Assembly (NCBI GenBank): GCA_963575745.1
Contig: CAUYUJ010012158.1
Span: 378,501-442,500 of the forward strand
DNA length: 64,000 nucleotides
Reading direction: 5' to 3'
From: Prorocentrum cordatum
Lineage: Eukaryota; Sar; Dinophyceae; Prorocentrales; Prorocentraceae
The notes under the pieces were generated by a model, which made no database searches, was not told where the DNA came from, and was given only the letters and a program-made list of their open reading frames with translations. Positions 25,209 to 51,399 of this stretch are shown here, piece by piece; positions within the stretch are counted from its first letter, which is position 1, and the number at the start of each line of letters is the position of its first letter. A program made the translations under genes and the position numbers.

Positions 25209-25270
25209 TATAGTCAGCAACGAAAAGTTAGCACAATATCGATCCAGCCTGTGCTATCTCTGAGAATGCG
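25209..25270 (+). repeat. 62-bp repeat containing paired octamers (inverted copy at 45,762-45,823)
   Basis: Contains GTTAGCAC (25,227) and GTGCTATC (25,251) around AATATCGATCCAGCCT. The reverse complement at 45,762-45,823 differs at only about two or three positions. The outer 26 bases (25,209-25,234) also match 51,373-51,398 exactly on the other strand. Confidence 0.9.
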
Positions 25271-25398
25271 CCACCCATCTCCCCGGGGAAACTTTTTCTG
25301 GGCCAAAACGTCGATAACAGGCCGCTTTTCGAAATTACAACCCGAAATTTCACGAGCCAATTGCGCGTGCAGTTTCAGAAAATCAATAATACATCGAG

Positions 25399-25418
25399 TT
25401 TTTTTTTTTTTTTTTTTA
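25399..25418. repeat. Poly-T run
   Basis: About 19 T residues; could be the tail of a minus-strand retroposed copy, but no source sequence is recognised upstream. Confidence 0.8.
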
Positions 25419-25504
25419 TTTTTGGCATGCACTTGCAGTGGAGAGGGCGTTTGATACGATATTTTACGCGTCGGCATTCGCGTCGGGTGACACCCGGCGC
25501 CTCA

Positions 25505-25670
25505 GGAGGGAGTAGATAGCACGCCCTGGGAAGGAGGAGGCGAGGGAGGGAGGGGAGGAGGGAGTAGATAGCACGCCCTGGGAAGGAGGAGGCGAGGGAG
25601 GGGAGGAGGGAGTAGATAGCACGCCCTGGGAAGGAGGAGGCGAGGGAGGGAGGGAGGAGGGAGGGAAGGC
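25505..25670 (+). repeat. Three-copy tandem repeat carrying GATAGCAC
   Basis: AGTAGATAGCACGCCCTGGG followed by AAGGAGGAGGCGAGGGAGG is repeated with octamers at 25,515, 25,567 and 25,615. The same phrase forms the right end of the 158-bp element at 28,730-28,887 and, inverted, occurs twice at 29,490-29,570. Confidence 0.9.
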
Positions 25671-25679
25671 TGGGACCCC

Positions 25680-25688
25680 TATGGGCGT

Positions 25689-25719
<31 letters not shown>

Positions 25720-26435
25720 CCCGCCGCCGTCGCCGTCGGGCTCCGACGCCCCGGCCCCCGTCGGGCGCCGGGCCCAGGCGCCGGGCCCCCGTCCGCGGCC
25801 CGCGGGCCGCGGGCTGTCCGACGCCCCCCTCGGGCTCGGATGTGCCAGGTCGGGCGTTGCAAGGGGTGGCGCTGGCTCAAGGTGGCCTCCGACCCCGACC
25901 TTCGACCAGCAGGGGTCGGGGGTCGGGGGTCGGGGGCCCCTTGAACCACTGCCACATCTGACAACTTCCGACCTCGGACCCGAGCCCGAATCGTCGCTCG
26001 TCGCGCGCCGCCGCGATGTGGCGCCAGGGCGTGCTGCGCGCCGCGCCCCCCGGCGGCGTGGCGCTCGACGTCGACGACGAGGACGACGACGACGAGGACG
26101 TCGCTGTCGTCGTCGTCGTCGTTGGGCTCCCCCTCCCCCTGCACGGGCTGTGCTATCTTCGTCGTCGTCGTCGTCGTAGTCGTCGTCGTCGTCGTCGCCG
26201 CCGTCGTCGCCGCCGCGTCGTCACTGTCTGTGCTATCGTCGTCGTAAGTAATAAGGGGAAATGCGCGAAACGCAAAACGGCGCATAAGAAAACGGCGAAG
26301 AGAAACGATAAAAGGTTACCTTGAGAACGCTGCTCTCTCCGCCCTACGGGGAATGCGCGAAACACAGAGACGGGCGCATAAGAGTACAGCGTAGAAAGAC
26401 GCGGCTCGTAAAACTCGTCGTCGCGGCCGGACGCG
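25680..26435. other. GTC-rich region with two octamers; no certain gene
   Basis: Contains CGT/GTC runs and GTGCTATC at 26,150 and 26,230. A stretch at about 25,842-25,944 reads MCQVGRCKGWRWLKVASDPD and might be an exon; 26,016-26,110 reads an Asp-rich tail (VALDVDDEDDDDEDV). Both calls are weak. Confidence 0.35.
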
Positions 26436-26437
26436 GA

Positions 26438-26583
26438 CGAGGGGTCCTAGGGTCGATATTGAGCGTAGTTGGGCCGCTGCTGTCTCACCGCTCCCCAATC
26501 CCCCCTTTCGTCCGACCCCAGCCTAGAAATCGACGAAATCCGCATTCAAAATCGGCCCCTGGACCCCTCCTGGAGTCCACCCT
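26438..26583 (+). repeat. Duplicated block copy 1 (pair with 29,004-29,152)
   Basis: Shares GGGGTCCTAGGGTCGATATT, GCGTAGTTGGGCCGCTGCTG and CCTGGACCCCTCCTGGAGTC with 29,004-29,152, about 96% identical. CGCGGCTCGTAAAACTSGT precedes both copies. Confidence 0.9.
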
Positions 26584-26739
26584 CTTCCTCCTCAGACTTC
26601 TCAGCTCCTCCTCTCCTCGGACTCCCCAGTCCTCCTCCTCCTCCCCCCCCTGATCCTCGTCCTGATCATCATCATCGCGTCATCGCGTCGTCGTCGTCGC
26701 CGTCGTTGGGCTCCCCCTCCCCCTGCGCGGGCTGTGCTA

Positions 26740-26780
<41 letters not shown>

Positions 26781-26852
26781 CTGACCTAGCCAGGAGCTCC
26801 TGGCCAGGTCAGGACATGGTAGTGAATCCCCCTGCGCGGGCTGTGCTATCAT

Positions 26853-26897
<45 letters not shown>

Positions 26898-26922
26898 TGT
26901 CGTCGTCGTCGGTGGGCTCCAG

Positions 26923-27941
26923 CCTCTTCCGCTTCTTCCGCCGAGGAGGCCGAGGAGGGGGCCGAAGCGGAGGGCCCGCCACCCGCCGCGCCGCCGGTGC
27001 CCCAGAAGGGCATGGGCAAGCGCGTCGTCGAGCTGAGCTCCAGCGACGACGACGACGTCATCGTCGCCCAGAGGCCGCCGCCTCCCAGAGGCCGCGGCGG
27101 CGGGCGCCGCGGCGGGCGCAGCGGTGGCCGAGGTGGCCGCGGCGGGCGCCGCGGTGCCGGCGCTGCCCACGCGGGCGGCGGGAGGGGGCGGCTGGCGCTG
27201 CCCAGCGCCGCCAGCGCCGACGCCGGCGCCAGCGCCAGCGCCGCCCCCGTCCACGTGGAGCCGCCGGCGGCGTCGGGCGAAAGGATCAGGACGTTTGCCA
27301 TGGTCTGTGCCGACGCCGGCGCCAGCGCCAGCGCCGCCCCTGTCCACGTGGAGCCGCCAGCGGCGTCGGACGCATGGGCTGCGGTCTGTGGGCTGCGCCC
27401 GCCACCTGGCGCGGGCGACAGCGTCTGGGCTCGCCCAGCGGACATGACCCCAGCGGTCATCGCGCTGGGAGACATCGATCGCCCGCCGGCGGCGCCAGCG
27501 CCGACGCCAGCGACGCCAGCCCCGACGCCAGCGCTGGCGCCAGCGGCGCCAGCGCCGCCAGCGCCAGTGGCCGAGGCGGCGCAGGGAGGGCCGCCGACCG
27601 AGGAGTCCTCGCCCAGGACGCCGCCTTCGCCCTCCGTGTGGTACGCGACGCCGCCGTCGACGCCCGAGGCGGCGTTCCTGGCCTACGGGGTGCAGCCGCC
27701 GCCGCTCCCCGCGCCGACGACGCCGGAGGCGGCGTGCCTCGCCGAGGCGCCGAAGACGCCCGAGGCGGCGCCGCCGCCCGCGCCCGGCGCCGCCGCCGCC
27801 GCCGCGGCGGTGCCGCAGCCGGCGCGCCCGAAGAGGCCGCTCCCGAGGCCGATCCGCGCCCTGCCCGCGCTGCCGCCGCCGCGCCCAGCGCTGCCCGCGC
27901 TGCCGCCGCCGCGGCCATCGGCGAGCCCAGCGCTCGGGTGA
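26923..27941 (+). CDS. Low-complexity RGG and Pro/Ala-rich exon
   Basis: After GGTGGGCTCCAG (acceptor-like AG at 26,922) the frame reads an acidic Ala/Glu stretch, then GKRVVELSSSDDDDVIVAQR, an RGG-type block (GRGGGRRGGRSGGRGGRGG), two copies of a 20-residue ADAGASASAAPVHVEPP unit and four TPEAA units in a Pro/Ala-rich tail. The frame stops at 27,939-27,941, but CGG|GTGAGC at about 27,937 is a better-looking donor, so the exon may continue elsewhere. RGG plus CK2-like acidic serine stretches are typical of disordered nucleic-acid-binding proteins; function is not assignable. The minus strand is also open, but its translation is less protein-like. Confidence 0.5.
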
Positions 27942-27959
27942 GCGGGAGGAGAAGCGGCA

Positions 27960-28189
27960 CCACCACCACCAGGGGGGGCGACCGAGACGACGACGGCGAG
28001 GGGACGAGGTCGACGACGAGGACGACGGCACCACCACCACCAGGGGGGGCGACCGAGACGACGACGACGTCGATGCCGAGGACGCCGACTCTGGATGATG
28101 ATGAGGTCCCCGATGACTGGGAGGGGGGACCACGCCACCCCGATCCCTCCGCCACCGCGTCAGTGGTGGTGGTGCCGCACGGGTCCTAG
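27960..28189 (+). CDS. Possible downstream exon ending in an acidic tail
   Basis: One frame reads a Thr/Asp-rich segment with a 38-bp direct duplication (27,958 and 28,027; ACCACCACCACCAGGGGGGG) and ends RTPTLDDDEVPDDWEGGPRH ... stop at 28,189. May be the C-terminus of the gene starting at 26,923. Low complexity makes the call uncertain. Confidence 0.3.
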
Positions 28190-28190
28190 G

Positions 28191-28665
28191 CACGGCGGCG
28201 GCGCGGCGAGCGCGGCGGCGGCGGGGGCGGCGCCCGCGGCGGAGCGCCGGCGGCCGCCGCCTGCGCCGCGGGGCTCGGTGACGGCCGAGCTGCCGGCCTG
28301 CGGCGGCGCGGCGAGCGAGGCGGCGGCGGGGTCGGCGCCCGCGGCGGAGCGCCGGCGGCCGCCGCCTGCGCCGCGGGGCTCGGTGACGGCCGAGCTGCTG
28401 GCGCTTCCAGCACCGACGCCGACGCCAGCACCGACGTCGGCACCTACGCCAGCGACGCCAGCGGCACCGCCGGCAACACCAGGCGCTTGCGCCCGCACCG
28501 ACGCCAGCACCGACGTGACTGGCACCAACGCCTGCGCCTACGCCAGCACCTACGCAGCCAGCACCGGCACCAACGCCTACGCCGGCAACAACGCCTACGC
28601 CAGCACCTGCGCCAGCACCTCCGTCTGAGGCGGTGCCGGGCGGCGCCGTGGCGCCCCTTGCGCGC
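28191..28665 (+). CDS. Possible Ala/Pro/Thr-rich coding stretch with 114-bp tandem duplication
   Basis: A unit reading AAERRRPPPAPRGSVTAEL occurs twice in the same frame (about 28,222-28,285 and 28,336-28,399), followed by Pro-Thr-Pro-Ala repeats to a stop near 28,665 in a shifted frame (...SEAVPGGAVAPLAR). The duplication is clean at the DNA level. Coding status rests only on the long open frame. Confidence 0.3.
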
Positions 28666-28729
28666 TGACCCTGGAGTGCGCCTCTCGCTTGCTTCTCGCT
28701 GCAGTGCGCCTCCTCCTCCTCCTCCTCCT

Positions 28730-28887
28730 CCTGGGTGTGCTATCGACTCTCTGCGCGTCCCCCAGGGGTCGCCTCTCTGGCCTTTGCGGGGGCATCTTGT
28801 CGCTGCGGCTGGACGCGGCTCGTAAAACTGGTGTCCTCGGTGTCGTCGGCCCCTCGAAGTAAGGAGAGAGTAGATAGCACGCCCTGG
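28730..28887 (+). mobile_element. 158-bp introner/MITE-like element, copy 1
   Basis: Begins CCTGGGTGTGCTATCGACTC and ends GTAGATAGCACGCCCTGGG. The ends are inverted repeats (CCYGGGYGTGCTATC). The whole unit reappears inverted at 29,544-29,701 with about four differences and the same length. No coding capacity. It belongs to the set of units bounded by the GTGCTATC octamer. Confidence 0.8.
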
Positions 28888-29003
28888 GAAGTCGTCGTCG
28901 TCGTCGTCGTCCTCGTCGTCGTCGTCGTCGTCGTCCTCGTCGTCGCCGCTGTCGTCGTCGTCGTCGTGGGCGCGGCTCGTAAAACTGGTGCGATCGGACC
29001 CCG

Positions 29004-29152
29004 CGAGGGGTCCTAGGGTCGATATTGGGCGTAGTTGGGCCGCTGCTGTCTCACCGCTCCCCAATCCCCCCTTTCGTCCGACCCGAGCCCAGAAATCGAC
29101 GAAATCCGCATTCAAAATCGTCCCCTGGACCCCTCCTGGAGTCCACCCGACG
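29004..29152 (+). repeat. Duplicated block copy 2
   Basis: Direct-orientation partner of 26,438-26,583. The duplication sits 2.57 kb away, next to the octamer-bounded element. Confidence 0.9.
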
Positions 29153-29282
29153 CAGTTTTCCACCCCGGCTGGATCGATTTTCGAAGGTCCAGGGCCCCGA
29201 ACACGGCCTCCAGAGGCCGAAAACGCCGAAAAGCCTCCTCGAACCTCGACGACGACGACCACGATGGAGGCCCGTGCCGTCT

Positions 29283-29324
<42 letters not shown>
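29283..29324. repeat. TA microsatellite
   Basis: About 20 TA units. Similar arrays lie at 30,130-30,163, 32,610-32,635, 39,797-39,841, 40,200-40,229, 40,312-40,330, 41,058-41,089, 41,522-41,565, 45,686-45,724 and 46,335-46,355, all in introns or spacers. Confidence 0.95.
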
Positions 29325-29328
<4 letters not shown>

Positions 29329-29543
29329 CTCGTTTTCGCCCTGGTGGGCTCCTCGTCGCCCTGGCTGGACTCGGCCTTGGTGGTCGCTCGGCGGCCTGGC
29401 GTTCGCGTGATGCATGCGCGTGCGAGGGGGGGGCCGACCTTCTGACTCTCTCTTTTTCTTTCTCTCTCTCTCTCTCTCTCGCTTCCTCCTTCCCAGGGCG
29501 TGCTATCTACTCCCTCCTTCCCTCCCTCCCTCGCCTCCCCCTT

Positions 29544-29701
29544 CCCAGGGCGTGCTATCTACTCCCTCCTTACTTCGAGGGGCCGACGACACCGAGGGCA
29601 CCAGTTTTACGAGCCGCGTCCAGCCGCAGCGACAGATGCCCCCGCGAAGGCCAGAGAGGCGACCCCTGGGGGACGCGCAGAGAGTCGATAGCACACCCAG
29701 G
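29544..29701 (-). mobile_element. 158-bp introner/MITE-like element, copy 2 (inverted)
   Basis: Reverse complement of 28,730-28,887 over its full length, about 97% identical. A second copy of the CCCAGGGCGTGCTATCTACT end lies just upstream at 29,493-29,512, so the end itself has been tandemly duplicated, as at 25.5 kb. Confidence 0.8.
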
Positions 29702-29921: not shown

Positions 29922-29966
<45 letters not shown>

Positions 29967-30128: not shown

Positions 30129-30157
<29 letters not shown>

Positions 30158-30163
<6 letters not shown>

Positions 30164-30522: not shown

Positions 30523-30523
30523 T

Positions 30524-31229: not shown

Positions 31230-31992
31230 ACTCCGAACTCGGCGCTTGGCATCCGCTTGTTCATCCACAACGCGGGGGAGACCATGTCGCCCGACCACAC
31301 GTGGGTCGATTGCTTCAACGAGGAGGGGGAAACAACTGTGCACATGCTGTTGCGCCTGGTGCCGAACAATGGCGACGATGACGACGAGCACCTGACGGAA
31401 CACTACGACCTCCTGTGGCCGAAGGCTCCCCACAGAGTCCTCGGCGCATGGGACACGCACATTCCGGAGCTGGGCGTGGACGAGGAGGCCCCGAGGGGGC
31501 CCGCCGAGGAGACCCCGAAGGAGCAGCCAGAAGCGGCCCTGCCGCTGCCCCAGGCGCCCCCCGCGCTCGCAGGCGAGCCCCCTTCGGCGCCCCAGCTCGG
31601 GCTCCCTGGCCACGCCGAGGAGGCCCCGCAGGAGCAGGCAGATGCCGCCCAGCCCGCGCCCGCAGGCGAGCCACCCCTGGGGCCCGAGCCCGCGGCGCCC
31701 CAGCTCGCGCCCCCTGGCGACGCCGAGGAGGCCCCGCAGGAGCAGGCAGATGCGGAGGCGCCCGCAGGCGAGCCTCCCCTGGGGCCCCAGCCCGCGGCGC
31801 CCTCTGGCAGCGCCGAGGAGGCCCTTGCGCAGGAGCAGCCAGAAGCGGCTGGGCCCAAGAGGGGCCGGCCCGACTCGGGACATGAGTCAGCGGACGATTC
31901 GTGGCTGGAAGCAGCGACGCCGGATGGAGACTCTGGGAATCAGCTGGCTGGCGACGAGGTGGCCTCGGCGTTTCCGAACGTCGTTGCTGCCC
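31230..31992 (+). CDS. Exon with acidic N-part and Ala/Pro/Glu repeats
   Basis: Starts after a pyrimidine tract and reads NSALGIRLFIHNAGETMSPD, then HTWVDCFNEEGETTVHMLLR, followed by three to four copies of a 30-40 residue repeat built on EEAPQEQADA...PAGEPPLGPQPAAP. It ends near SGNQLAGDE|VASAFPNVVAA. A donor GAG|GTGGCC at about 31,956 would join in phase to the next exon at 32,140; the alternative donor at the octamer (31,993) would not. Secreted or nuclear role unknown; the repeat region is probably disordered. Confidence 0.6.
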
Positions 31993-34939: not shown

Positions 34940-35581
34940 CACGTCCGACAAGGACCAGCATTGTTCCGAATTCTTACAACGACGCCATGCAGATTCCTGC
35001 ATATTCGGGAATATCATGAACTTCGTTGACATGAGGGCCCAGCGGGCCATCGACGAGGCCCAGCGTACGTCAGATAAGGCATTTGCAAAGGTACAACATA
35101 TCATCCAGGACGCTGGAGTCCTCAGCCATGCGCCCTGCCGTGCCCACCCACTGAACTCGTGCGTTCGTCCAGGGGCTGCGCTCGATCCATGCCCTGACCC
35201 CTTGATCCTGGACAGTGCCGGCACCCCCTGCATCCCCTGGGCTGCTGGGGGGAAGCACTTGGGGGCAGAGGACCACATCCACAAAGTGCCCCTGGTGTGG
35301 GCCGAGATGATGTGGAGGGACGAGCCTCCACTGGGGTTCCACGAAAACACGCCCCTCTTCGATTCAGCGACAATGCTTGGGCGACTGGATGAGAAATACT
35401 TCAAGATCGAGTTTGAGGTTTCTCCCACAGATGTCGGCGTCCTCGCCCACAAGCGCAAGCGCCTCGTCACTGTGTTCATACATAAGACGAAATGCAGGGT
35501 GCTGGGGGACGTCGAGGCGACCCCAGGGGTTTCAAGAATTCACTGGGGCCTCCGAAAACGTCAACTAAATCTAACCAGCAT
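34940..35581 (+). CDS. Cytosine-C5 methyltransferase-like, catalytic exon
   Basis: Reads TSDKDQHCSEFLQRRHADSC and IFGNIMNF (motif II/III-like acidic residue plus FxDI-type strand), then ILDSAGTPCIPWAAGGKHLG (motif IV, Pro-Cys with the catalytic Cys at about 35,228), GFHENTPLFD (motif VI, ENV-type, here ENT) and SPTDVGVLAHKRKRLVTVFI (motif VIII, QxRxR-type, here HKRKR). Order and spacing match the family; motifs IX and X and a target-recognition domain are not obvious. The loss of Gln/first Arg in motif VIII and Thr for Val in motif VI are departures. The exon ends at or before GTGCTATC (35,582); splicing there joins in phase to 35,918. Dinoflagellates are known to carry diverse C5 methyltransferases, some inside retrotransposons, so this could be host or element-borne. 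Confidence 0.7.
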
Positions 35582-35917
35582 GTGCTATCTGCGACGCTCT
35601 CCCCCGCGCGCCCTATATGGCGGATTTCAGTCGGCGGGCGGCCGCTGAGGGCTGGCGGAAGTAAACAGCAGCGGCCTGCCTGCGGAAGCTTGCGGATGGT
35701 AAATTGGAGGCGGCGGAAGTAAAAAAGGAGATGTCGACATATTGAGCGCGGGCGTTGGCGAAGTCGGCAGTGGGCCAATCAAGGGGGGAGGAGGGAACAA
35801 TGGAGGCAGTGGGTGAAGGTGGGTCGGGGTTCGAGAAGGTTGTTTTAAAGCTTCATTCGGGCCGGGGGGCCATCAGGAATCGATCCAGAGCGAGAAAATT
35901 GCCAGGATGGGCCCCAG

Positions 35918-36190: not shown

Positions 36191-36514
36191 GTGCTATCTC
36201 ATGCCCTATCTATCTCTCTATATATGTGTATCCCCCACATCTCTCTAACTATGCATGTATCTATGTAAGTAAGTATGCATGTATGTATGTATATATGCAT
36301 ATATGTATTTACCTTCCCTATATACTACCCCGCCCCTGACCAGAAGCTTTCAGAGGGTCCCCAGGGAGCACTTTCGGAGCCCTCTTGAGCCTCTCAGAAC
36401 GCCCTGGGAAGCCCCAAGAGGAGCCCAGATCCCCTGGGTGTGCTATCTGAGCGTCGTTTGATGCCCCGCCCCCCCACTCGCCGGCCGCCCGCCTGCCGGG
36501 AAATTCCTGACCCC

Positions 36515-37178
36515 TGCAGAACAGTCTCACTTGGATGCATATATTGAGTATTGGGAGAGGGACTATGCGACCAACCCCGCAGAAGATGCTCGAGCTCTCT
36601 TCGCTGTGACCCAGAACCCAGACGAGTTCAACTCGCGCTCCAGCTCGGATGGGGCGTGCCCGTGTTTCAGGCACCATGGTACGCCACGCATCTGGGGGGA
36701 AGCCAAGGCACGGTGGCTCACTTGCTTGGAGAAGCTGAATTCTTTAATGTTTCCTGTGTACTCTGGGCCTGCAGATGCAGCTGGCGTCGATGTAATGGAT
36801 TTCAGCCTCTTTAAATCCAGCGTGGTGCATGCGATGGCAGGCAATTCGATGTTTATCGGCAACTTCGTACTTCTCTTCTTAAGCACATTCGCTAATGTGT
36901 CACTCGTGAGGGCGCAGGAGCTCGTGCCCGCCCCAGCCCCCGCAGCGGCAGCTGCAGACGAGGTACCTGCTGATCTTCCAGAAGGATTGCAGGTGAACAA
37001 GAGGATTGCAGGCGGCGCAATTATGCTCCAATATAAAGAGTACGGCATCAAGAAACAGTTCAAAGTCAAGGAGACTGGCAGCTACAAGCGCGCAGAAGAA
37101 TTGGCCACCGCTGCGCTGGCTGAGCTCCGGGTGGCGGAGGTCCGGTTCAATCGGGCGCGAAGCCCGTCGCTACGGACT
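36515..37178 (+). CDS. Exon with an AP2-like stretch
   Basis: Starts after CTGACCCCTGCAG (intron with GTGCTATC at 36,440). Reads QSHLDAYIEYWERDYATNPA, EDARALFAVTQNPDEFNSRS, a Cys-containing SDGACPCFRHHGTPRIWGEA, a hydrophobic MFIGNFVLLFLSTFANVSLV, an Ala/Pro linker, then KRIAGGAIMLQYKEYGIKKQ and FKVKETGSYKRAEELATAAL. The last part resembles an AP2/ERF-type DNA-binding strand-strand-helix (strand, FxVKxxGxxxAxxLA), a tentative reading. The exon ends near the octamer at 37,179. Confidence 0.6.
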
Positions 37179-37558
37179 GTGCTATCTACCACCCGCCCCC
37201 CCCCCCCTAACGTATTGTATGTATTGAGGCATCCGCTCGGGCACTCCTCTGGAATTGTTCTTGAGGCTCTCTTAGGCCCCTCTGCAAAACCCCCATAGAG
37301 CCACATGGAGCCCCGCTCGAGACTTCTTGGAGTTATATACCGAGAACTCCCCCCGAGGAGGTGGAGGAGGAGGCCCCGCTGGAGCCATCTGGGGCTGTGC
37401 TGTACCCTCCCTGGGCGTTCCTGGGGCCACATTGAATTGTTTTGGCTGATCTTGGGGGATCTGGCCATTTGGGATCACCCCGGGCCCCCTCTCATCGGGC
37501 TGTGCTATCTGCGTGTTCGGCATGGGCAGGGGGGGGCGGGGGGGGGGGGGCGGATCAG

Positions 37559-38040
37559 GTTCATGGGCTACCGAGTCAACGAACTCAAAGAGCTTGTCAA
37601 GGAGGCTGGCTTCAAGCCTGCAGGCAACAAAAGTGATTTAATCTGTGTACTCATGAACAACAAGGCTGGGTCCCTCGTGGCAGACCTCCTGCACAAGAGC
37701 GCGCTAGGTTCGGGATTGATGGCCCCTGCGCCCAAGAAGTTCGATGAAGCTTGCGTGTCGAAGACGATCACCCAACGCTTTACTGACCCTGCCGACCAGA
37801 CGCGCGCGTTGGTTGAGGCCCCTCCGAAGCCGCCCCACCTAACAGAGACAGAACCGCAATTTGTGATTGGGAGCTTCGTCGCAGGAGCGCTTGAGAGGGC
37901 ATTGGCTTCAAAGGATGCGCCCGAAACAGTGTATGGGTTATTGCTTGGGTGCCGCGTTCGACTGAGCAAGAAACTTGACCATGTTCTCGTTGCGAAGTTG
38001 GTTGCATCAGTCTTGCTGCGCACCCTCGCCGCCGGGAGAG
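37559..38040 (+). CDS. Exon with SAP-like DNA-binding motif
   Basis: After GGCGGATCAG (the 57-nt upstream intron would start at GTGCTATC 37,502, and the phases agree) reads MGYRVNELKELVKEAGFKPA then GNKSDLICVLMNNK, which fits the SAP motif (helix, GLxxxGxKxxLxxRL). It continues LLHKSALGSGLMAPAPKKFD, VSKTITQRFTDPADQTRALV and VIGSFVAGALERALASKDAP, ending about LLRTLAAGREGRG before repeats. SAP domains bind AT-rich or scaffold DNA. May be part of the methyltransferase transcript or a separate gene. Confidence 0.6.
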
Positions 38041-38700: not shown

Positions 38701-38831
38701 TGTTAGGGTCAGCCCGTCCCGACTCGTCTCGATTGTTAGGGTCCGCCCTCTTGGCCCGACCCGATCCGCTCGTTCGGGTACTCGCGTGACAGGTCGACGA
38801 TGTATTAAATTTTATAACCCGCCCGAGGGGT

Positions 38832-39489
38832 TCCCGGAGGCCAAGACAGCCCGCTGCACTTAAGGGGCCCTTAAGTGCAGCGGCTCTGCTCCTCCTTCGG
38901 GGGGGCTCCCGGGGGGGTTCCCGGATTACAGGGCTGTACTTCAGGGGCCCTTAAGTGCAGCGGATCTGCTCCTCCTTCGGGGGGGCTCCTGGAGGCCAAG
39001 ACAGCCCGCTGCACTTACGGGGCCCTTAAGTGCAGCGGATCTGCTCCTCCTTCGGGGGAGCTCCCGGAGGCCAAGACAGCCCGCTGCACTTAAGGGGCCC
39101 TTAAGTGCAGCGGATCTGCTCCTCCGTCGGGGGGGCTCCCGGAGGCCAAGACAGCCCGCTGCACTTAAGGGGCCCTTAAGTGCAGCGGATCTGCTCCTCC
39201 TTCGGGGGGGCTCCCGGAGGCCTAGACAGCCCGCTGCACTTAAGGGGCCCTTAAGTACAGCGGATCTGCTCCTCCTTCGGGGGGGCTCCCGGAGGCCAAG
39301 ACAGCCCGCTGCACTTAAGGGCCCTTAAGTGCAGCGGATCTGCTCCTCCTTCGGGGGGGCTCCCGCAGGCCAAGACAGCCCGCTGCACTTAAGGGGCCCT
39401 TAAGTGCAGCGGGCCTGCTCCTCCTTCCGTCGGGGGGGCCCCGGAGGCCAAGACAGCCCGCTGCACTTAAGGGGCCCTTAAGTGCAGCG
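38832..39489 (+). repeat. 76-bp tandem array, each unit with a 15-bp-stem hairpin
   Basis: Eight to nine units. Each contains CCGCTGCACTTAAGG, GGC, CCTTAAGTGCAGCGG (15-base perfect arms, 3-base loop), then ATCTGCTCCTCCTTCGGGGG and CTCCCGGAGGCCAAGACAG. Units from 39,080 on are near-identical and 76 bp long; the first units are longer and more variable. One unit (about 39,313) lacks the loop and is a perfect palindrome. Confidence 0.95.
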
Positions 39490-39517
39490 GAGGGCGAGGT
39501 GGAGGAGGAGGAGGATA

Positions 39518-42402: not shown

Positions 42403-42817
42403 GTGATTCCATTGTAATTTTCAAAAAGATGCAGATCATTCATTCTCTGGCTTTGCCGTAATCCGCCTGACCAGGCCATGCTGACTGATGTGCCATTCCC
42501 CCTCCTCGTCTCTCGTTGTGTCGCTTCTCATCCTCCTCATTCCTCGTTTCTCTTCCTCCTCAATCTGTCGATGTTGCTTCTTCCTCTTCCTCCTCCTCCG
42601 CCCAATGGCCCAGCCGCCTGCCTGTGCTATCCCCTCTCCCGCCTGGTCGCCGCCAGGTCCAACAGGCTTACCGCGACCAAGAGGGCCCCAAGACGGCTCC
42701 AAGAGGGCCCCGAGAGGGCTCCAAGAGGCCCCGGCAACAAAAAAACAATGTATTTTTGCCATGCTGTTATCAGATTCCACTGGGGGCTTCTGAAGAGCCC
42801 CAAGGAGGGGTCCTCAG

Positions 42818-43424
42818 GCTTCTCCATGCGCTGCCAGGGGCTGTCTCTGGGAAGACAGGTGATGGATTTCTATCAAAGTATGGAGGGCCCTCACAGAATC
42901 CGCGAAGATCTGACTATAGCAGAGTTCCCTGAATCTATAAAAAGGACAATGATTCACCGTTGGATTGCCTCTTCTAAGAAGTACTATTGGGGCCAGCTCC
43001 CAGTGAAGGTGGCAAAATCGCAGAAAGAGGTGCCCAAATGGTTTCGGAAGGCGATGAATTTGGATTTGAAGGGCCCAGGTTCCAACAACTTCTTGCCTAT
43101 GGAAATTCAGATCCTGCTAGATAAGTGGCTGTGCAGCAGGACCCAAGCCATGGATCACAGCAAAGCAATCCGGGAGCAGCTCTCAACTAAGAACATCGTC
43201 GAAGCGGCCAAGAAGGTGATCAGCCGCTACAACCTCAGGGCCATAAAGACAAACAAGGACATCGACGCGACGAACAATGCAACATGGGATAAATTCCTGG
43301 CTAAAGAGATCACTGACGACCAAGCCACAGAGATGTACCTGAAGCGTATTCCTCTAGCTGAAGGCCATCCCACAGCGACGTGGGCGAAGCGGTTCAAGGA
43401 CAGATTTGGCTGGCGTACCAAGAG
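42818..43424 (+). CDS. Pogo/Tigger-like transposase, CENP-B-type helix-turn-helix exon
   Basis: After GGGTCCTCAG reads FSMRCQGLSLGRQVMDFYQS, EFPESIKRTMIHRWIASSKK, then PMEIQILLDKWLCSRTQAMD, TKNIVEAAKKVISRYNLRAI and GHPTATWAKRFKDRFGWRTK. The second half matches the CENP-B HTH pattern that ends in a GW-x2-RFK-x2-R-like phrase, preceded by a first HTH ending ...MIHRWI. Donor AGAG|GTCCGAG leaves two bases, exactly what the acceptor at 44,303 needs. Binds DNA in the family. Confidence 0.7.
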
Positions 43425-43640
43425 GTCCGAGCTCCCCCTTCCAATTTAGATAGCGGGCTGTGCTAACTACACTGCGTCATTCTACTCGCTGGGGTGGGCC
43501 CTCGTCGTCGCGGCTCGACGCGGCTCGAAAGACTCGTGGCGTCGATGGCCCCCGAGCGGTCGAACGAACAGAGTCCAAATGGCTGGGGGAGGGCATTCCG
43601 AGCGGTCGAACGAACAGAGTCCAAATGGCTGGGGGAGGGG

Positions 43641-43883
43641 GATAGCACAGGCCAGGACAGAGGAGGACGGGGAGGAAGGGGAGGAGGGAGGGAGGGGCGA
43701 GGAAGGGGTGCAGCAGCATAATGAGCACCCTTCCCTCCCTGCACCCCTCTCCCCATCGCCGCCTGGCCAGCTGCTGCCTGCTCGGCCAGGATCGCCTCGA
43801 TGCCCAGGCAGTCGTCGGCCTGGCGAGGGAGGTGGGGGGGGGGGGCGAGGAGGAGGAGGAGGCGGCGCCCTGGCTGTGCTATC
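43641..43883. mobile_element. Octamer-bounded unit, 243 bp
   Basis: Starts GATAGCACAGGCCAGG and ends CCCTGGCTGTGCTATC, inverted repeats apart from one base slip. The interior is GGA-rich and CTCCCTGC-rich, with no coding capacity. Confidence 0.5.
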
Positions 43884-44086
43884 TGCGAGTCGTTACTCTC
43901 TCGGGCTTTTCCCTCTGAACTTCTTGGGGCCCTTGGTCCTCGGTCCTCGATCGCCGCCGCCGACGACGACGACGACGACCAAGACGACGACCAAGACGAC
44001 GACGACGACCACGACGACGACCGCGACGACGACGACGACGATGGAGGCGGCGGCGTCGGCGCCGGAGCCGGCAGCGGCCTGGGCCT

Positions 44087-44263
44087 CTTGGGCGTTGCGT
44101 AATGGAGGGGTCATAAATAGGGGGGTGGCGAGGGTGGTCCGAAAAGGTACCCAAACGGTACCTAAACGAGCCCCCTGGGGGTCTGGAGGGGCCCGAAAGG
44201 GGCACGAAAGGGGACCGTTTCTGACCCCCCCATTTATGACCCCCCCATTAAGCAACGCCCAAG
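44087..44263. mobile_element. MITE-like hairpin element, 177 bp
   Basis: Left arm CTTGGGCGTTGCGTAATGG continuing AGGGGTCATAAATAGGGGGG. The right arm is its inverted repeat with three mismatches over about 38 bases (arms 44,087-44,126 and 44,224-44,263). Interior holds GGTACC twice. No coding capacity. Sits in an intron 40 nt before the DDE exon. Confidence 0.75.
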
Positions 44264-44302
44264 CCTCGGAGCGCCCCTGCCCTGCCTGTGCTATCCGCTC
44301 AG

Positions 44303-45102
44303 GCTGTCTGCGCCTGGGGACGCGCTCCCGCTGAACCACTGGAAAGTGGTGCAATGGAGACGGGGTTGGACAGAGGATCTTGCCAGGGCCAACGTGGACG
44401 AGCGCCTTGTCTTGAACTATGACCAGGTTTGGCGCATTGTGCATCGCGGGAGCCAGGTAAAGCTATACAAGGCACGGGACCGATCAGGACGCCAGCTCGA
44501 TGGGCTGTCGCGCAAGCAGCAGTTCATGGCGAGAGAGGCTCGGGGATCTCTGGCTATGCTCAAGAAGAAAGCCTACGACGAGGCCAACACCTACCTGGAC
44601 TACGAGTGCCTGGGCGATTCCACTGATGAGGAAGTCGAGGCCGATCCTGACTTCGTCTCCAACATCCCTGTGGCCGGGGCCCGGCTGCCACATACCTGCG
44701 TCACCTCAGTGTGGGCCAGCGGCCACACAGGGCCCCTCATCTACGTGTTCGGGTCGAACGGGCCACTCAAGGCGAGCACCGTCGCTGAGCTGAACAACAA
44801 GTACCAGGGGGAAATCTTCTGCATGATGAGCGGCATAGCTACCCACTTCATGGACACAGATTCAACTCTGCGCATGTGGGAGGGTGCCTTTGCACCAGCC
44901 TTCGCCCAGCGCCGCAAGGATTTGGGCTTGACGCGCGCCGTCAGAGGGGCCCTAGTCTATGATTCATTCTCGGGAAACGAGGGGAGCGGTGGGAATGTCC
45001 AGCGCGAGAAGTTCCTGGAGGACCACAACCTGATCGCGAAGCAGATTCTTCCGCACGGCACCGCTGTACTCCAAGCATGCGATAAGATACACGCATACTG
45101 GC
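44303..45102 (+). CDS. Pogo/Tigger-like transposase, DDE-superfamily exon
   Basis: Reads LSAPGDALPLNHWKVVQWRR, then NVDERLVLNYDQVWRIVHRG (first catalytic Asp in an NxDQ context), HTCVTSVWASGHTGPLIYVF, GALVYDSFSGNEGSGGN (second Asp) and LPHGTAVLQACDKIHAYWRR (third Asp, in the LP-x-T-x2-LQ-x2-D context). This is the DDE_1 pattern of pogo/Tigger/Jerky transposases. All three acidic residues are present. The gene is cut by introns and has a long C-terminal extension, so it is probably a domesticated or host-spliced derivative, although intron-bearing elements cannot be excluded. A GC-type donor GGC|GCAGGT at 45,103 gives the right phase for 45,502. Confidence 0.7.
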
Positions 45103-45219
45103 GCAGGTCCGCCGGGCGGGGGGGAGAAGGAGGAGGAGGAGGAGGAGGAGGAAGAGGGGGGGGCGACGACGACTCCTCTGTTCTTAGGTGCGTGCGAAGC
45201 GCGCGGTGGCGCTCAGTTA

Positions 45220-45331
45220 TATAGCACAGCCTGGGACGAGGGGGCGAGGAGGAGCATGGGGGAGGAGGGGGAGGAGGAGGAGGAGGAGAAGAAGGATGTG
45301 CTAACCGCCCACCTGGCCAGGCTGTGCTAAC
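45220..45331. mobile_element. Octamer-bounded unit, 112 bp
   Basis: Left TATAGCACAGCCTGG and right CCAGGCTGTGCTAAC are inverted repeats over 13 bases. A further GTGCTAAC lies inside at 45,298. The interior is GGA repeat. Confidence 0.6.
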
Positions 45332-45501
45332 CGCCCCCCTTGGTGCTAGCGGGTGAGGGCGAGATGCAAGACGCGGGCCCCCCGATGTCCCTTGGGCCCC
45401 CTGAGGCTACAAAAAGCTTTGGATGTTCCAGAACGAGAGGCCCCCTGAGACCCGAATGCGATATTTTTAAAACGTTACCTTGCGACCTGTCCTCCCCGCA
45501 G

Positions 45502-45639
45502 TCAGGTTGACCGATGCTTACGAGGCCGAAGCAGTTGGATTCAATGCTAACCCCATGCGACGCGCAGCACTTCATGATATTGCTCGCAATGAATCAGGAT
45601 TTGCAGATCGGCGCCTGGGAACGCCAGAAGAGGTCCGAT
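45502..45639 (+). CDS. Pogo-like gene, exon after the DDE domain
   Basis: After CTCCCCGCAG reads RLTDAYEAEAVGFNANPMRR, AALHDIARNESGFADRRLGT and PEE. Donor AGAG|GTCCGATG (same GTCCG form as at 43,425) leaves phase 0, matching the next exon at 46,154. Helical in character, as expected for the end of this transposase type. Confidence 0.6.
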
Positions 45640-45685: not shown

Positions 45686-45716
<31 letters not shown>

Positions 45717-45761: not shown

Positions 45762-45823
45762 GCGTTCTCAGAGATAGCACAGGCTGGATCGATATTGTGC
45801 TAACTTTTCGTTGGTGACTATAG
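45762..45823 (-). repeat. 62-bp repeat, inverted copy of 25,209-25,270
   Basis: Holds GATAGCAC (45,773) and GTGCTAAC (45,797) flanking AGGCTGGATCGATATT. Confidence 0.9.
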
Positions 45824-46153
45824 TGGAGTCTCTCGGGAGAATGGCGAGAAACCGCGCTGTGGGCAGGCCCCTCCGCCTGGCGGATGCCCTCGTCGTCGCC
45901 GCCGCCGCCGCTGCCGTCGTCGTCGTCGTCGTCGTCGTCGCTTCTCATCCCCCGGGCCTGGCGGCTGGGCGCCAGCGCGCGCCGTTGGCGGCCCATCGGC
46001 CTGCGGCGCCCTGGCCTGGCGCGCGGCGGGGGGCGTCGCTGTCGCCGTCGTCGTCGCTCGTCGGCCTCGGCCTCCCGGGGGGGCATTGGCGGGGCCGCCA
46101 AAGAGAAGGATCGTCGAGTTTTTTTCGGCTTCTGGGAGCCGCTTTCCTGACAG

Positions 46154-47292: not shown

Positions 47293-47780
47293 GTGCGCAC
47301 CAGGATGTGCTAACTAGACGTCGTGAAACCTCTCTCCCTCCCCCTCTTCCTCCTCCTCCTCTTCCATCCCTTCTCCTGGTGCATCAAAAAGATACCCCTG
47401 TCAGACCGCCAGACTTTGCAGCTAAATATGTATATATACACACACCTATATATTAAACAAACCCAGAGGAGATGAAAGGCTGGGGGGATCAGAGATCTGC
47501 AATGCACCAGGCTGTGCTAACTAGATGTCGTAAGAACCTGCCCCCGACTCCCCCCCTCTGCTCTGGACTCTCCTGTGTAGGGCGGGCAGGGCGTTTCGCG
47601 CCGCCGCCCTGGGCCCGACGCTCTCGGGCCACGCCGAGGCCCTCTGGGGGAGGCCGAGGCTCTCGGAGGGAGGCGACGGTTTTGTCGTCGTCGTCGCCGC
47701 CGCTGCTGTCGCCGCCGCCGCTGTCGTCGTCGTCGTCGTCGTCGCGGCCCCAAGGGGGATATGGGGGTCCCATCCGCCAG

Positions 47781-48148
47781 GCTGAGGCGCTGGAGGACGG
47801 CCCGGCCAAGGCGAAGGCGGTCGCAGCCACCGCCGCCGCTGTTGACAAGGTCAACTCGAATCGCTTCTACACGTTTCTCTTTAATCCATCACAGCATCGT
47901 GAGATCAGGGGGAGAGAGAAACTCATGAAGCTGCCAAAGTACAAAGGGGCGACCAAGCATGGTATTGCGTTTCGCCTCGACCCTGCAACTCCGAGCATTC
48001 GCGTAGACCCGCTATCGCCTGGTGAGTTCGTGCCCATTCGGTGCGTGGAGGTATTGCCAGGTACTGACCCAATGCCTGCCATCTTCGCGCTGGACGCCCT
48101 ACCAGAACCGCCCCCCGAGCCTGAAGACGACGAAGGCGCGGGGATGGG
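47781..48148 (+). CDS. Pogo-like gene, extension exon
   Basis: After CCCATCCGCCAG reads AEALEDGPAKAKAVAATAAA, VDKVNSNRFYTFLFNPSQHR, REKLMKLPKYKGATKHGIAF, RLDPATPSIRVDPLSPGEFV and VLPGTDPMPAIFALDALPEP, then an acidic tail. Likely ends between 48,130 and 48,149; a GC donor GAAG|GCGCGG would fit the phase of 48,326. Unknown domain. Confidence 0.55.
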
Positions 48149-48325
48149 GGTCCAGGGAAAACGCCCCAACCCCATTGCGCCAGCTTGTGCTATGTGCTGT
48201 CTCCCCTCGCAGTCGCTGTCGCCGTCGCTGTCGCCGTCGCCGTCGCTGTCGTCGTCGTCGTCGTCGACCCCCCTCCCTCGCCTTACCTCGCCTTCCTTCT
48301 CTCTCAAGCTGCGGCCTCAACCCAG

Positions 48326-48723
48326 GTGGTGACGTCGACCCCGTGATGGCCGAGGGCGGCGCGGCAGTGCCCCTGGCTGGGCCAGGCGGCGACGGAGGGG
48401 GCGGCGGCGGGGGCTTGGGCGCGGCAGTCGAGCCAGGCGGCGGCGGAGGGGGCTTGGGCGAGGCAGTCGAGCTCGAGGAGCTGAACGATTTAACTGTCGA
48501 CGAGTTCCTGAAGTACGAGGCTGGACGCAAGGGCGCGCTGAGGGCTCCGGTGGCGACGCCGCCGGCGCTGCCTCATCACCTGCCCGATGGGGGCCGCCGT
48601 CAGGCCCACGGTGACAAGTGGCAGTACTGGTACGAGAGGTGCCCACGCACAGGGCTGCCCACTGGCTCCGGCGTGGGCCAGTGTAAGTGCCTCGGGATTG
48701 CATGGGCCGATCGAACTCCTTAA
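48326..48723 (+). CDS. Pogo-like gene, terminal exon
   Basis: After GCCTCAACCCAG reads GDVDPVMAEGGAAVPLAGPG, two Gly-rich repeats (GGGGG-LG-AVE), LEELNDLTVDEFLKYEAGRK, GDKWQYWYERCPRTGLPTGS, GVGQCKCLGIAWADRTP and a TAA at 48,721-48,723. The Cys/Trp-rich end could bind a metal (Cys-x-Cys). Closes the gene that starts at or before 41,854. Confidence 0.6.
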
Positions 48724-48790
48724 ACCCTGGCCCTCGATCCTCGAACCTCCAACCTCGATCCTCGAACCTCGAGCGTCGAACCTCGACGGA

Positions 48791-48868
48791 GATAGCACAG
48801 GCAGAACAGGACAGGGAGGATCGTGGAGGAGGGGGATTAGATCCCCCTTCCCTTCTGCCTGTGCTAAG
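48791..48868. mobile_element. Octamer-bounded unit, 78 bp
   Basis: Starts GATAGCACAGGCAGAA and ends TTCTGCCTGTGCTAAG: 14-base inverted ends. Contains GGGGGATTAGATCCCCC, an internal palindrome. Lies 67 bp after the stop codon at 48,723. Confidence 0.65.
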
Positions 48869-48885
48869 TTTGGGCCCTCAAGGAC

Positions 48886-49078
48886 TCGGGCCAGGCGAAA
48901 GGGGGGGATTGGGAAAGGGGGGGTTACGAAATCTGCTGCATGCAGCTGGTTTCGGCCTCGCCGAGGGGCCCATTCCTCGATGCATGGCCGCCTCCGGCGC
49001 CGGGAGGCGCCGGGAAAATCAGCTACATGAGCTGATTCTCAAACCCCCCCTTTGCTATCCCCCCCCTTCGCCCGACCC
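48886..49078. mobile_element. MITE-like hairpin element, about 193 bp
   Basis: Left arm TCGGGCCAGGCGAAAGGGG continuing GGGATTGGGAAAGGGGGGG. The right arm is an imperfect inverted copy (about 35 of 40 bases). The interior contains a CTGCTGCATGCAGCTGG palindrome and duplicated GGCGCCGGGA. No coding capacity. Confidence 0.6.
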
Positions 49079-49497
49079 GAAGGACGTCTGTCTTCCAGAG
49101 CAAGACGTTCGCCTGGCCCCAGCACTACCCCACGAGCGAGGCAGCCCAGGCGGCGGGGAGCGCTTGGGCATGGCAGCAGTGCGCAGTTCACACTGCTGGC
49201 CCTGAGGAGTAGCCATTTTCCCTGTGGCCTGTGCAGCTGCTAGTGGCAGCGCGACCAGGGAGCGGTTCGTTTGCGTCGCAGCCGCCGCCCCCATGCGCGG
49301 GCGCGGCGGACGCGCGGGCGTGGGCGCGGGCTTTCCTCCACCTCCTTCTCCTCCTTCTCCAGTTCCTCCTCCTCCTCCTCCTCCTCCTCCTCCTCCTGCT
49401 CCTCTCTCTTTCTCTGGGCGCCGCTGAGGCGCACCAGGTGGGCCTGGGGCGGGCCTGCCAGGTGTTTTAAGTTCCCGCTTTTGCCTGGTTGGGACAG

Positions 49498-49721
49498 GCG
49501 TGCCAGCAGATGATTCTAAATCCTGGAAGCCAAAACAGGAAAACAACCAGCTGGCGATTTGGCATCCAGGATTGGCGTGGAGCCTGGGGGCGCTCAGCGG
49601 GAGAGACCTGGACTGGTTGCGGGTGCGGCGAGCAAGGCATCTGCTGGCCCACTTCCAGAGCACAGAGAGAAAAAGACTCGCTGATCCACTCCTGCCCCCT
49701 ATCCTGGGGTTCGAAGGGTAA
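49498..49721 (+). CDS. Terminal exon, unknown protein
   Basis: After GGTTGGGACAG reads VPADDSKSWKPKQENNQLAI, WHPGLAWSLGALSGRDLDWL, RVRRARHLLAHFQSTERKRL, ADPLLPPILGFEG and a TAA at 49,719-49,721. Trp-rich, basic and protein-like. Upstream exons not identified (the preceding 500 bp are repeats and a hairpin element). Confidence 0.5.
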
Positions 49722-49793
49722 GGAGTGGGAGGTCAGATCAGATCCAGATCAGCTCGTGCTATCTGCCCTGGCCAGTAAGGGCGGGAGGGGGAG

Positions 49794-49796
<3 letters not shown>

Positions 49797-49842
<46 letters not shown>
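49797..49842. repeat. GA microsatellite
   Basis: About 22 GA units. Confidence 0.95.
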
Positions 49843-49847
<5 letters not shown>

Positions 49848-49999
49848 CCCTCAGAGAGAGCGGGCGCCCTCCGCGGCCTTCTGGCGGCCCCCTGGTGGAG
49901 GAGGAGGAGGAGGGGGAGGAGGAGCTGCCACGTGCGGCTCAGTGGTGCGAACAGAGAGGGCCATTCTGGGCTCCCCCTCCCCTTGCGCGGGCTGTGCTA

Positions 50000-50029
<30 letters not shown>

Positions 50030-50030
<1 letters not shown>

Positions 50031-50520
50031 CGAAGAGGGGGATGGGGCGGGGCTCGCCCCACTCGCCAGGGGCCCCCTCGCCGCCGCCAGTGCCTCTTCA
50101 GCGAGCTTCGCGGCGCGCGCCGTGGGCCCCTTACCCCCCCGGCCACAGAAGCATCGGCATCGGATGTGGCTGCTGCTCGGCTCGGTGCTCTTGCTGCTCA
50201 GCTTCATTGCGGGCGTTTGGATCGGTCGTCGCTGGCCGAAGGCCCCTGAACCGAGCCCGACTTCTCCACCGCCCCCGCCAGCTGTGGCGCTTCCACCGCT
50301 TCCACCAGGGCCACCAGGCAGCCGCTCGTCGTCGTCGTCGACGAGCCCACCGGAGCCGAGCCCGACCCCTCCTCCGCCCGGACCGCCAGAGCCGCGCCTG
50401 AGGGCCCCTGGATCGAGCCTGAGCCAAATCACGATGGTGGTGACCGCGCCCTCTGGGAAGGCCTTCCACTTGCGGGATGATTGCAAAGGCCTGAATTTAC
50501 CTCGCGATGCTGCTGAGGGT
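50030..50520 (+). CDS. Single-pass membrane protein exon with His/Cys motif
   Basis: Follows an octamer and GTC run at 49,994-50,030. Reads a Ser/Glu/Ala-rich lead, then a transmembrane helix MWLLLGSVLLLLSFIAGVWI (about 50,163-50,222) followed by basic GRRWPK, a Pro/Ser-rich linker, then SQITMVVTAPSGKAFHLRDD and CKGLNLP. The last part with the next exon gives H-x4-C-x3-L ... LC-x2-C, a probable small zinc-binding unit. Membrane anchor predicted; function unknown. Confidence 0.55.
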
Positions 50521-50836
50521 TGGGAACGCGGGGGCCCGCCCAGGCTTGAATCTCTCTCTCCGCCCCCCTGCCCTGCCTGTGCTTTCTCTTCCCCCATGCC
50601 CTGCCCTGCCTGTGCTTTCTCCTTCCCCACTGCCCTGCCTGTGGTGCCTCCTTCCCCCTCCCCCCCTCCTCCTCCCTCCCTCTCCTCTTCCCCCTTATCC
50701 GTCTTCCTCTTCTTTCCTTCGACTCCTCCTTTTCCTCGTCGCCACATCCCTCCACCTCCTTCTCCTCCATTTCGCCCTCGACTGGAAAAGCGAACCCCCG
50801 GTTCCCAACCCCTGTTTCCGGCCGCCTGGACCGCAG

Positions 50837-50885
50837 GAATGTGAAATATTTGCCATTGTGCAAGATATGCGCCAAGCGCGAGTAG
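50837..50885 (+). CDS. Terminal exon completing the Cys motif
   Basis: After CTGGACCGCAG reads NVKYLPLCKICAKRE and a TAG at 50,883-50,885. Cys-x2-Cys completes the motif begun at about 50,470. The intervening intron holds degenerate octamers (GTGCTTTC twice). The exact donor is not resolved. Confidence 0.5.
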
Positions 50886-51149
50886 GTGCCCCGCCCGTTC
50901 AGGGGGGGGCCAACCTTCTAAATAGCAGAGAGTAGGTGCCCCGCCTGTTCAGAGGGGGCCTGCCTGTGCCATGCCGCAGCTTGGAAGAACGCATTCCTCC
51001 TCCTCCTCCTGCTCCTCCTTCTCTGCCTCGGATGCCCAGGAAGGGGGGGAGAGGAGAGGAGAGGAGGACGATGTGGGAGAGGAACGGAAAATGAGGAGGA
51101 GGAGAAGGGTTCGAAGGGGTAGAGATCCAGCCCTAGCTGCACCCCACCC

Positions 51150-51245
51150 CGCGAAAAGTAGTTAGCACAAGTGTTCCAACCCGCGAAAAGTAGTTAGCGC
51201 AAGTGTTCCAACCCGCGAAAAGTAGTTAGCACAAGTGTTCCAAGG
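51150..51245 (+). repeat. 32-bp tandem repeat carrying GTTAGCAC
   Basis: Three units of CGCGAAAAGTAGTTAGCACA plus AGTGTTCCAACC; the middle unit has GTTAGCGC. Confidence 0.9.
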
Positions 51246-51399
51246 AGTAGATAGCACACGCTGGCCTGGATCCATTCCGCAACGCCCAAAGAGATAGGAT
51301 TTTCAGGCCCAAGAGGGCACCGAAGAAGATAGCACAGTTACCAGGCGGTGCTAACTTTTCCTTGGAATGCTCGTGCTAACTTTTCGTTGCTGACTATAT

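Follow-up and report, generated by a model that had tools for sequence, protein, structure and literature searches.

A repeated octamer marks a lineage of giant terminal-inverted-repeat transposons in Prorocentrum cordatum

The octamer-bearing element

We analysed a 64-kb stretch of the genome of the dinoflagellate Prorocentrum cordatum (the window, on contig C12158), in which one octamer, GTGCTA[T/A]C, recurs dozens of times; all of its copies lie within a single giant transposon with terminal inverted repeats (TIRs), 26,186 bp long, at 25,211-51,396. The octamer occurs in two one-base forms on both strands (GTGCTATC 27 times, GTGCTAAC 10, GATAGCAC 13, and GTTAGCAC 4; 54 in total): the first copy starts at 25,227, the last is located at 51,373-51,380, and there are none in the rest of the 64 kb. 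An earlier note, made by eye, had reported the same counts and the same confinement to 25,227-51,380, which a recount reproduced exactly; its estimate of about one copy expected of each 8-mer is above the values of an order-2 Markov model, which gives 0.28, 0.08, 0.12, and 0.03, respectively, between 25 and 51.5 kb. The octamer ranks first among the enriched 8-mers of the element region (simple repeats masked), and the one-mismatch spectrum of GTGCTATC is sharp, with 40 exact copies, 14 of GTGCTAAC, and 13 of all remaining variants together. The median spacing of the 54 octamers is 412 nt. Alignment of their flanks revealed an upstream context C-(A/G/T)-G-(G/C)-Y-T (CDGSYT), with C at position -6 in 46 and G at position -4 in 49 of the 54, and a downstream context T, N, C.

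A single TIR transposon, rather than a set of scattered insertions into host introns, accounts for the octamer domain. The two TIR arms are identical at 24 out of 24 nt: the left arm (TAGTCAGCAACGAAAAGTTAGCAC; 25,211-25,234, plus strand) has the minus-strand octamer GTTAGCAC as its inner 8 nt, and the right arm (51,373-51,396, minus strand), its exact reverse complement, begins with the octamer GTGCTAAC. The left-end type recurs in other copies; further copies lie at unrelated sites, and stretches of the element are found elsewhere at 98-99.6% identity. The earlier note had suggested terminal repeats of an introner family or of miniature inverted-repeat transposable elements (MITEs); the octamer is indeed the inner end of a TIR, but of a 26-kb transposon that spans the gene-bearing region. 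A TA dinucleotide on each side (25,209-25,210 and 51,397-51,398) is probably the target-site duplication (TSD), judging from filled and empty sites. The right flank (51,399-51,650) is an interspersed repeat, for which 40 places were scored (itself included; 89-100% identity), and all five fetched empty copies read ...(C/T)ATACCTATA-(T/C)CGGATGG; the copy in C19642 has the matching left flank, ...ggcataccta/TATAGTC, and the copies whose ends were read start with TATAGTC and finish with GACTATA. This comparison, in which the filled halves come from different contigs, fits a TA duplication around a TIR of the form TAGTC...GACTA. The flanks are unrelated in most copies read; C12158 and C15516 have one flank in common. 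The left flank of the window copy (at C12158:403709) matches the right flank of the C15516 copy at 100% identity, and its right flank (at C12158:429898) matches, also at 100%, the sequence next to the end of the C20385 copy. Since the flanks match two different insertions, C12158 may be chimeric, joined within the element during assembly, or may be a recombinant.

The octamers are found at both ends and throughout the interior. The left subterminal cluster (25,227-25,622) holds five (starting at 25,227, 25,251, 25,515, 25,567, and 25,615) and consists in part of a tandem repeat of 48-52 bp; the right subterminal cluster (51,161-51,380) holds six (51,161, 51,225, 51,250, 51,328, 51,348, and 51,373); and the remaining 43 are internal (26,150-50,001). 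Some internal octamers belong to larger repeats: for example, a 162-bp unit at 28,730-28,891, with octamers near both ends, has an inverted copy at 29,541-29,701 (97.5% identical), and the element's left end, comprising the TIR and two octamers, is present a second time at 45,762-45,830 on the minus strand. This internal end copy is also found at C15516:247848, C15130:108435, C19642:151811, and C20385:141248; in the family-1 giants (the window element and its nearest relatives, see below) the internal copies carry the variant GTTGGTGAC, in which the small family-1 elements end as well. A 75-bp tandem unit with a long palindrome (CCGCTGCACTTAAGGGGCCCTTAAGTGCAGCGG) is also repeated about nine times within the element, at 38,827-39,491.

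None of the 54 octamers falls in the coding blocks (3,373 nt) conserved between the window element and a diverged family (family 2), where 7.0 would be expected; similarly, none of 43 octamers falls in the 3,752 nt of conserved blocks in family 2 (5.6 expected). This bears out the earlier placement of the octamers in introns and spacers, across which they have a density of about 1.5-2 per kb in these elements. The coding blocks omit weak, minus-frame, and low-complexity rows (29,081-29,242, 31,263-31,427, 42,664-42,747, and 50,434-50,882) and antisense rows, and their family-2 partners were likewise left out, except for 11 nt; the block at 44,286 was shortened to the known acceptor (44,303), and in its full length would include the octamer at 44,288. 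Apart from that octamer, none starts in the omitted rows.

Copies, small elements and three families

We searched the P. cordatum assembly (4.13 Gb, 21,875 contigs) for further copies. The 26-nt end, with up to three mismatches, gave 44 matches (none in the reversed control), and a degenerate form of it, with up to two mismatches, gave 55 (five in the control). Among the 55, 34 pair into five complete giants (25-29 kb) and 12 small elements, the latter 1,028-1,597 bp long. The giants are in C12158 (26,190 bp, both TAs included), C15516 (26,853 bp), C15130 (25,288 bp), C14501 (28,740 bp), and C16218 (28,737 bp). Octamer numbers are similar in the five further giants fetched: 55 in C15516, 52 in C15130, 47 in C19642 (a copy cut by the contig end), 43 in C14501, and 44 in C16218, all of them inside the ends, with none in the fetched flanks (up to about 1.1 kb per side). 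Thus a word-count oddity becomes a defined mobile-element lineage in a multi-gigabase dinoflagellate genome; several near-identical copies (stretches of 98-99.6% identity) are probably recent, and empty sites exist.

The small elements are MITE-like; the five of the 12 that we examined derive from or resemble the giants. Three are internal deletions of family 1, in which 459-776 nt on the left and 520-628 nt on the right match the window element; they retain the left subterminal cluster, contain 11, 11, and 10 octamers, and lack the two conserved genes. The other two match both ends of the family-2 giant in C14501, and contain four and five exact octamers plus three and four of the form TTGCTAWC.

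Searches with P0001, a protein that matches the candidate transposase of the window element (see below), gave 20 genome matches and divided the lineage into three families. Family 1 is found on five contigs; family 2 (39-44% identical to the family-1 candidate transposase) in C14501, C16218, and C1747; and family 3 (29-31% identical) in C3335 and C4717. The other matches are in C13748 (69%, short) and C14148 (28%, weak). The C13748 pieces (1418-2073 and 6717-6842) represent a diverged relative of family 1, with 68-76% amino-acid identity and one stop in one piece. The coding blocks of families 1 and 2 are collinear over 35.0-50.9 kb of the window, and their one-mismatch spectra are sharp alike. 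In C14501 the family-2 octamers are preceded by C-A-T-T at positions -6 to -3 (in 41, 39, 41, and 38 of the 43, respectively) and always followed by T (43 of 43); the left part of this copy (C14501:185200-190000) contains repeated units with octamers in the context CATTGCGTGCTATCTAG. Family 3 has four octamers in one 6-kb piece (L069) and eight in another (L070), all 12 within TGTGCTATCT, with AT preceding nine (by eye). Comparing the contexts, we find that GTGCTA[T/A]C is kept in all three families while the upstream bases differ: CDGSYT in family 1, CATTNY in family 2, and mostly AT in family 3. In P. cordatum, a lineage of giant TIR transposons (25-29 kb), which apparently insert at TA, carries the octamer as a sequence mark common to its families.

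Genome-wide specificity was counted for extended motifs and not for the bare 8-mer. The 16-mer GGCTGTGCTATCTGCG has nine exact matches on five contigs, four of which hold copies of the window element. The family-1 form CDGGCTGTGCTAWCTNC has 34 matches in the 4.13 Gb (one in the reversed control), 24 of them in four family-1 copies, six in each; and the family-2 form CATTGTGTGCTAWCTR has 47 (none in the control), 44 of them on contigs with family-2-type ends or genes and three on other contigs (C615, C6947, and C12180). Since the extended motifs occur mostly in these elements and no octamer lies in a conserved coding block, the octamer is not a general intron signal.

Genes and introns of the element

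The candidate transposase begins with a region that appears helix-turn-helix (HTH)-like by eye (42,859-43,424, plus strand; conserved with family 2 and matched in part by P0001 and P0004) and continues, after an intron, with a catalytic-like part (44,303-45,107, plus strand; matched by P0001 and P0002, and in families 2 and 3). Three aspartate motifs can be recognized by eye (LVLNYDQVW, GALVYDSF, and LQACDKIH); together with the HTH-like stretch, we take them to resemble those of pogo transposases, a likeness unsupported by Pfam or PDB. P0001 and the family-3 frames matched no Pfam family at E values up to 10, the DDE_1 and CENP-B-type HTH families included; P0003 matched none at E up to 1, and P0004 only the unrelated DUF6620, below threshold (0.15). 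ENA contains relatives of the candidate transposase, the unnamed proteins P0002, P0003, and P0004, of which P0003 and P0004 are metagenomic.

The intron within this gene (43,425-44,302, plus strand; AG/GT...AG/G) contains four octamers. It had been proposed from reading phase, and is supported by the NCBI protein P0001, which joins GWRTKR to LSAPGD; the octamers nearest its splice sites are both in plus orientation, one lying 35 nt downstream of the donor and the other 7 nt upstream of the acceptor. The next intron (45,108-45,503, plus strand) has no family-2 counterpart and holds octamers at 45,298 and 45,324 and an imperfect minus-strand one near 45,222; another coding block conserved with family 2 follows (45,504-45,617, plus strand). 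Conversely, introns found only in family 2 are located in C14501 at 202,015-202,354 and within 202,926-204,675 (two introns around a short exon, by eye). A family-3 intron in the candidate transposase gene has no family-1 counterpart and shows CAG/GC at both ends: in C4717, GTGCTATC starts 25 nt after the donor and GATAGCAC ends 23 nt before the acceptor; in the C3335 copy, the GATAGCAC site is altered by one base. The earlier proposal that the motif itself, used as a donor at 35,582 and 37,502, keeps phase was not confirmed; by eye, a donor lying 4 nt before the octamer fits at 37,179, but the octamers at 36,191 and 40,976 fit poorly.

The upstream gene (plus strand) has coding blocks at 34,998-35,168 and 35,265-35,516, conserved in family 2, and another at 36,507-37,175 by the same comparison. 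This last exon has 13 genome matches, all on contigs that carry the candidate transposase or family-2 ends and motifs (C3547 and C13748 among them); a homologue search with the exons of this gene found nothing. A further coding block (37,560-37,970, plus strand) contains a sub-threshold SAP match at about 37,560-37,645, the only Pfam match in the three plus frames of the window; family 2 gave only sub-threshold matches to an alanine zipper and to DUF4381.

Function of the octamer

The octamer is part of the TIR, is kept in the small elements, and is conserved across families, which points to recognition by a protein of the element. We consider it probable that the octamer is the recognition site of a putative element-encoded DNA-binding protein, serving transposition at the ends and perhaps anti-silencing in the interior. 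Bound at the ends, this protein, either the transposase or an accessory factor, would bring together the transposition complex; bound in the interior, it would cover the element and maintain it in an open or expressed state, in the way that VANC proteins act on Arabidopsis VANDAL elements; and the family-specific upstream bases may be a half-site that co-evolved with diverging proteins. The tandem motif-bearing units, and the retention of both octamer-rich ends in the family-1 small elements, are consistent with a binding site. Three diverged families with one core word and changing flanks make the co-evolution of transposon protein and site directly testable. Tentatively, we suggest that these elements could be a new dinoflagellate lineage (possibly a superfamily) of giant TA-inserting transposons that use the octamer as an address for their own anti-silencing or chromatin-opening protein, convergent with VANDAL/VANC. 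The chromosomes of P. cordatum are packaged largely by non-histone proteins; if the interior sites do act in anti-silencing, such a system would have arisen once more, at a great distance from plants, and would offer a way to study how dinoflagellate nuclei keep DNA open.

Several known systems resemble the P. cordatum elements in part. VANDAL elements are Mutator-like, and the target duplication of Mutator-like elements (MULEs) differs from TA. In both VANDAL and P. cordatum, a short motif with two one-base forms is repeated in the element's own non-coding DNA, partly in tandem, with divergence between families (PMC5735166; PMC10398659). The targets given for VANC21 and VANC6 are YAGTATTAY and AGTTGTCC/AGTTGTAC, with 8-9 bp, a non-coding location, two one-base forms, and tandem repeats (PMC5735166). 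The P. cordatum elements differ in their size of 25-29 kb, in their apparent insertion at TA with a TA duplication, and in a core octamer that is the same in three families; in the plus frames scanned, Pfam matched no MULE transposase or VANC gene, and no VANC-like protein was recognized. En/Spm (CACTA) elements can likewise be large and intron-bearing, with motifs near the TIRs that combine a conserved sub-motif with a variable part and differ between subfamilies; the subterminal repeats bound by TNPA, including those of soybean Tgmt* (20.5 kb), are the closest known case of such a split motif, as described in passages of PMC2613891. The P. cordatum terminus, in contrast, reads TAGTC..., the TSD is TA instead of 3 bp, and most motifs are interior instead of subterminal. 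Tc1/mariner-pogo (IS630) elements share the TA target duplication, whereas the P. cordatum giants are far longer than usual members, carry more than one gene, and gave no Pfam match to this group. Polintons and other giant transposons are similar in size and in having TIRs; Polinton-type domains (PolB, capsid, and integrase) had no Pfam match in the plus-strand frames of families 1, 2, and part of 3. No paper on this element or octamer was among the matches listed in open PMC text.

Several observations weigh against the recognition-site interpretation. Tandem duplication accounts for part of the octamer copy number, and only three of the 43 family-2 octamers lie within 500 bp of an end (11 of 54 in family 1); moreover, the family-2 giant termini carry TTGCTAAC instead of the exact octamer. 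Family 1 also has a sense bias (37:17), which would be superfluous for a pure DNA site. Among recent family-1 copies, octamers have changed only a little less often than the average (4 of 155 site comparisons versus 9.3 expected: 0 of 54 versus 2.5 in C15516, 0 of 47 versus 1.4 in C19642, and 4 of 54 versus 5.4 in C15130), which is weak evidence of constraint on the time scale of recent copies. The candidate transposase matches no Pfam family or PDB chain by sequence, and the AlphaFold model of P0001 is too poor to use (pLDDT 41.6); the binder's identity and its purpose (transposition, anti-silencing, or both) are what we infer. Among the genome-wide counts, 21 of the 55 end matches are unpaired (five internal copies, two ends of the copies in C19642 and C20385, which are incomplete, and 14 others); one of the nine 16-mer matches is in C16445 (L015), without similarity to the window, the control strand count also being one; and ten of the 34 CDGGCTGTGCTAWCTNC matches lie outside the four family-1 copies (those in C13748 and C6758 look element-linked), about 11 being expected by chance on a rough estimate from pattern length, although the reversed-pattern control gave one. 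Finally, octamers are present in every one of the family-specific introns, although on our own estimate chance could suffice for this.

It is unlikely that the octamer serves transposition only, being needed at the ends, with the interior copies arising incidentally through tandem duplication, end capture, and rearrangement. Three family-1 small elements have retained the terminal clusters, the left end is copied internally at 45,762-45,830, and several internal octamers are part of duplicated units, all of which suits this explanation; however, the distance to the ends exceeds 500 bp for 43 of 54 octamers in family 1 and 40 of 43 in family 2, and the internal contexts of the two families are dissimilar, yet contain the same octamer with few one-mismatch variants, unlike neutral decay.

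Quite unlikely is a role at the RNA level, with the octamer acting as a signal in the introns of the element's genes or marking introner-like insertions that made those introns. The octamers are non-coding only, and some lie close behind exon ends by eye (37,179; 201,656 in family 2). In one family-3 intron they form an inverted repeat with one arm close to each splice site, and this intron, with its flanking CAGGC, comes near, by eye, to the inverted- and direct-repeat pattern of introners in P. cordatum and Amoebophrya (passages of PMC10666404 and PMC7789003); for P. cordatum, introners are defined in such a passage by inverted repeats of 8-20 nt plus direct repeats of 3-5 nt, at most 30 nt from both intron ends (PMC10666404). 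In the intron at 43,425-44,302, by contrast, the octamers nearest the splice sites have the same orientation and form no inverted repeat. The extended motifs belong mostly to one transposon lineage and are not spread through host introns as introners are, the octamers cluster in family-1 termini and in small elements that lack the two conserved genes, and no U1 complementarity is obvious by eye. Orientation speaks on both sides: the earlier note had seen a plus bias matching gene orientation, which stands in family 1 (37:17, binomial P = 0.009; 29:11 clusters at 0.7 flank identity), but not in family 2 (26:17, P = 0.22), where clustering leaves 13:12. The octamer-bearing small elements that lack these genes and the loss of bias in de-duplicated family 2 disfavour the RNA-level intronic signal of the earlier note as the sole function.

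Other candidates for the octamer were tried and rejected. A general host intron or splice signal was rejected as the main explanation, the extended motifs being mostly in the elements; so was a virus-borne motif (eight viral contigs, with one 16-mer match each). A 5′ splice site does not agree with octamers 4 to 99 nt from inferred donors, nor a branch point with widely varying octamer-to-AG distances (both by eye); the commoner form, GTGCTATC, lacks the canonical branch A. No consistent RNA hairpin stem was found (mean pairing 0.62-0.74 for GTGC and 0.30-0.48 for TAWC; control mean 0.61), and there were no matches to tRNA, tmRNA, or Rfam RNAs.

An assembly artefact or collapsed repeat that gives false clustering is very improbable: the two different copies matched by the C12158 flanks do make a chimera possible there, but C15516, C15130, and C19642, and the diverged family in C14501, C16218, and C1747, share the structure, and the metagenomic proteins agree with it. 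P0003 and P0004 continue past exon ends into introns, and at the matching places their residues are compatible with the octamer, which indicates that related elements exist in other samples.

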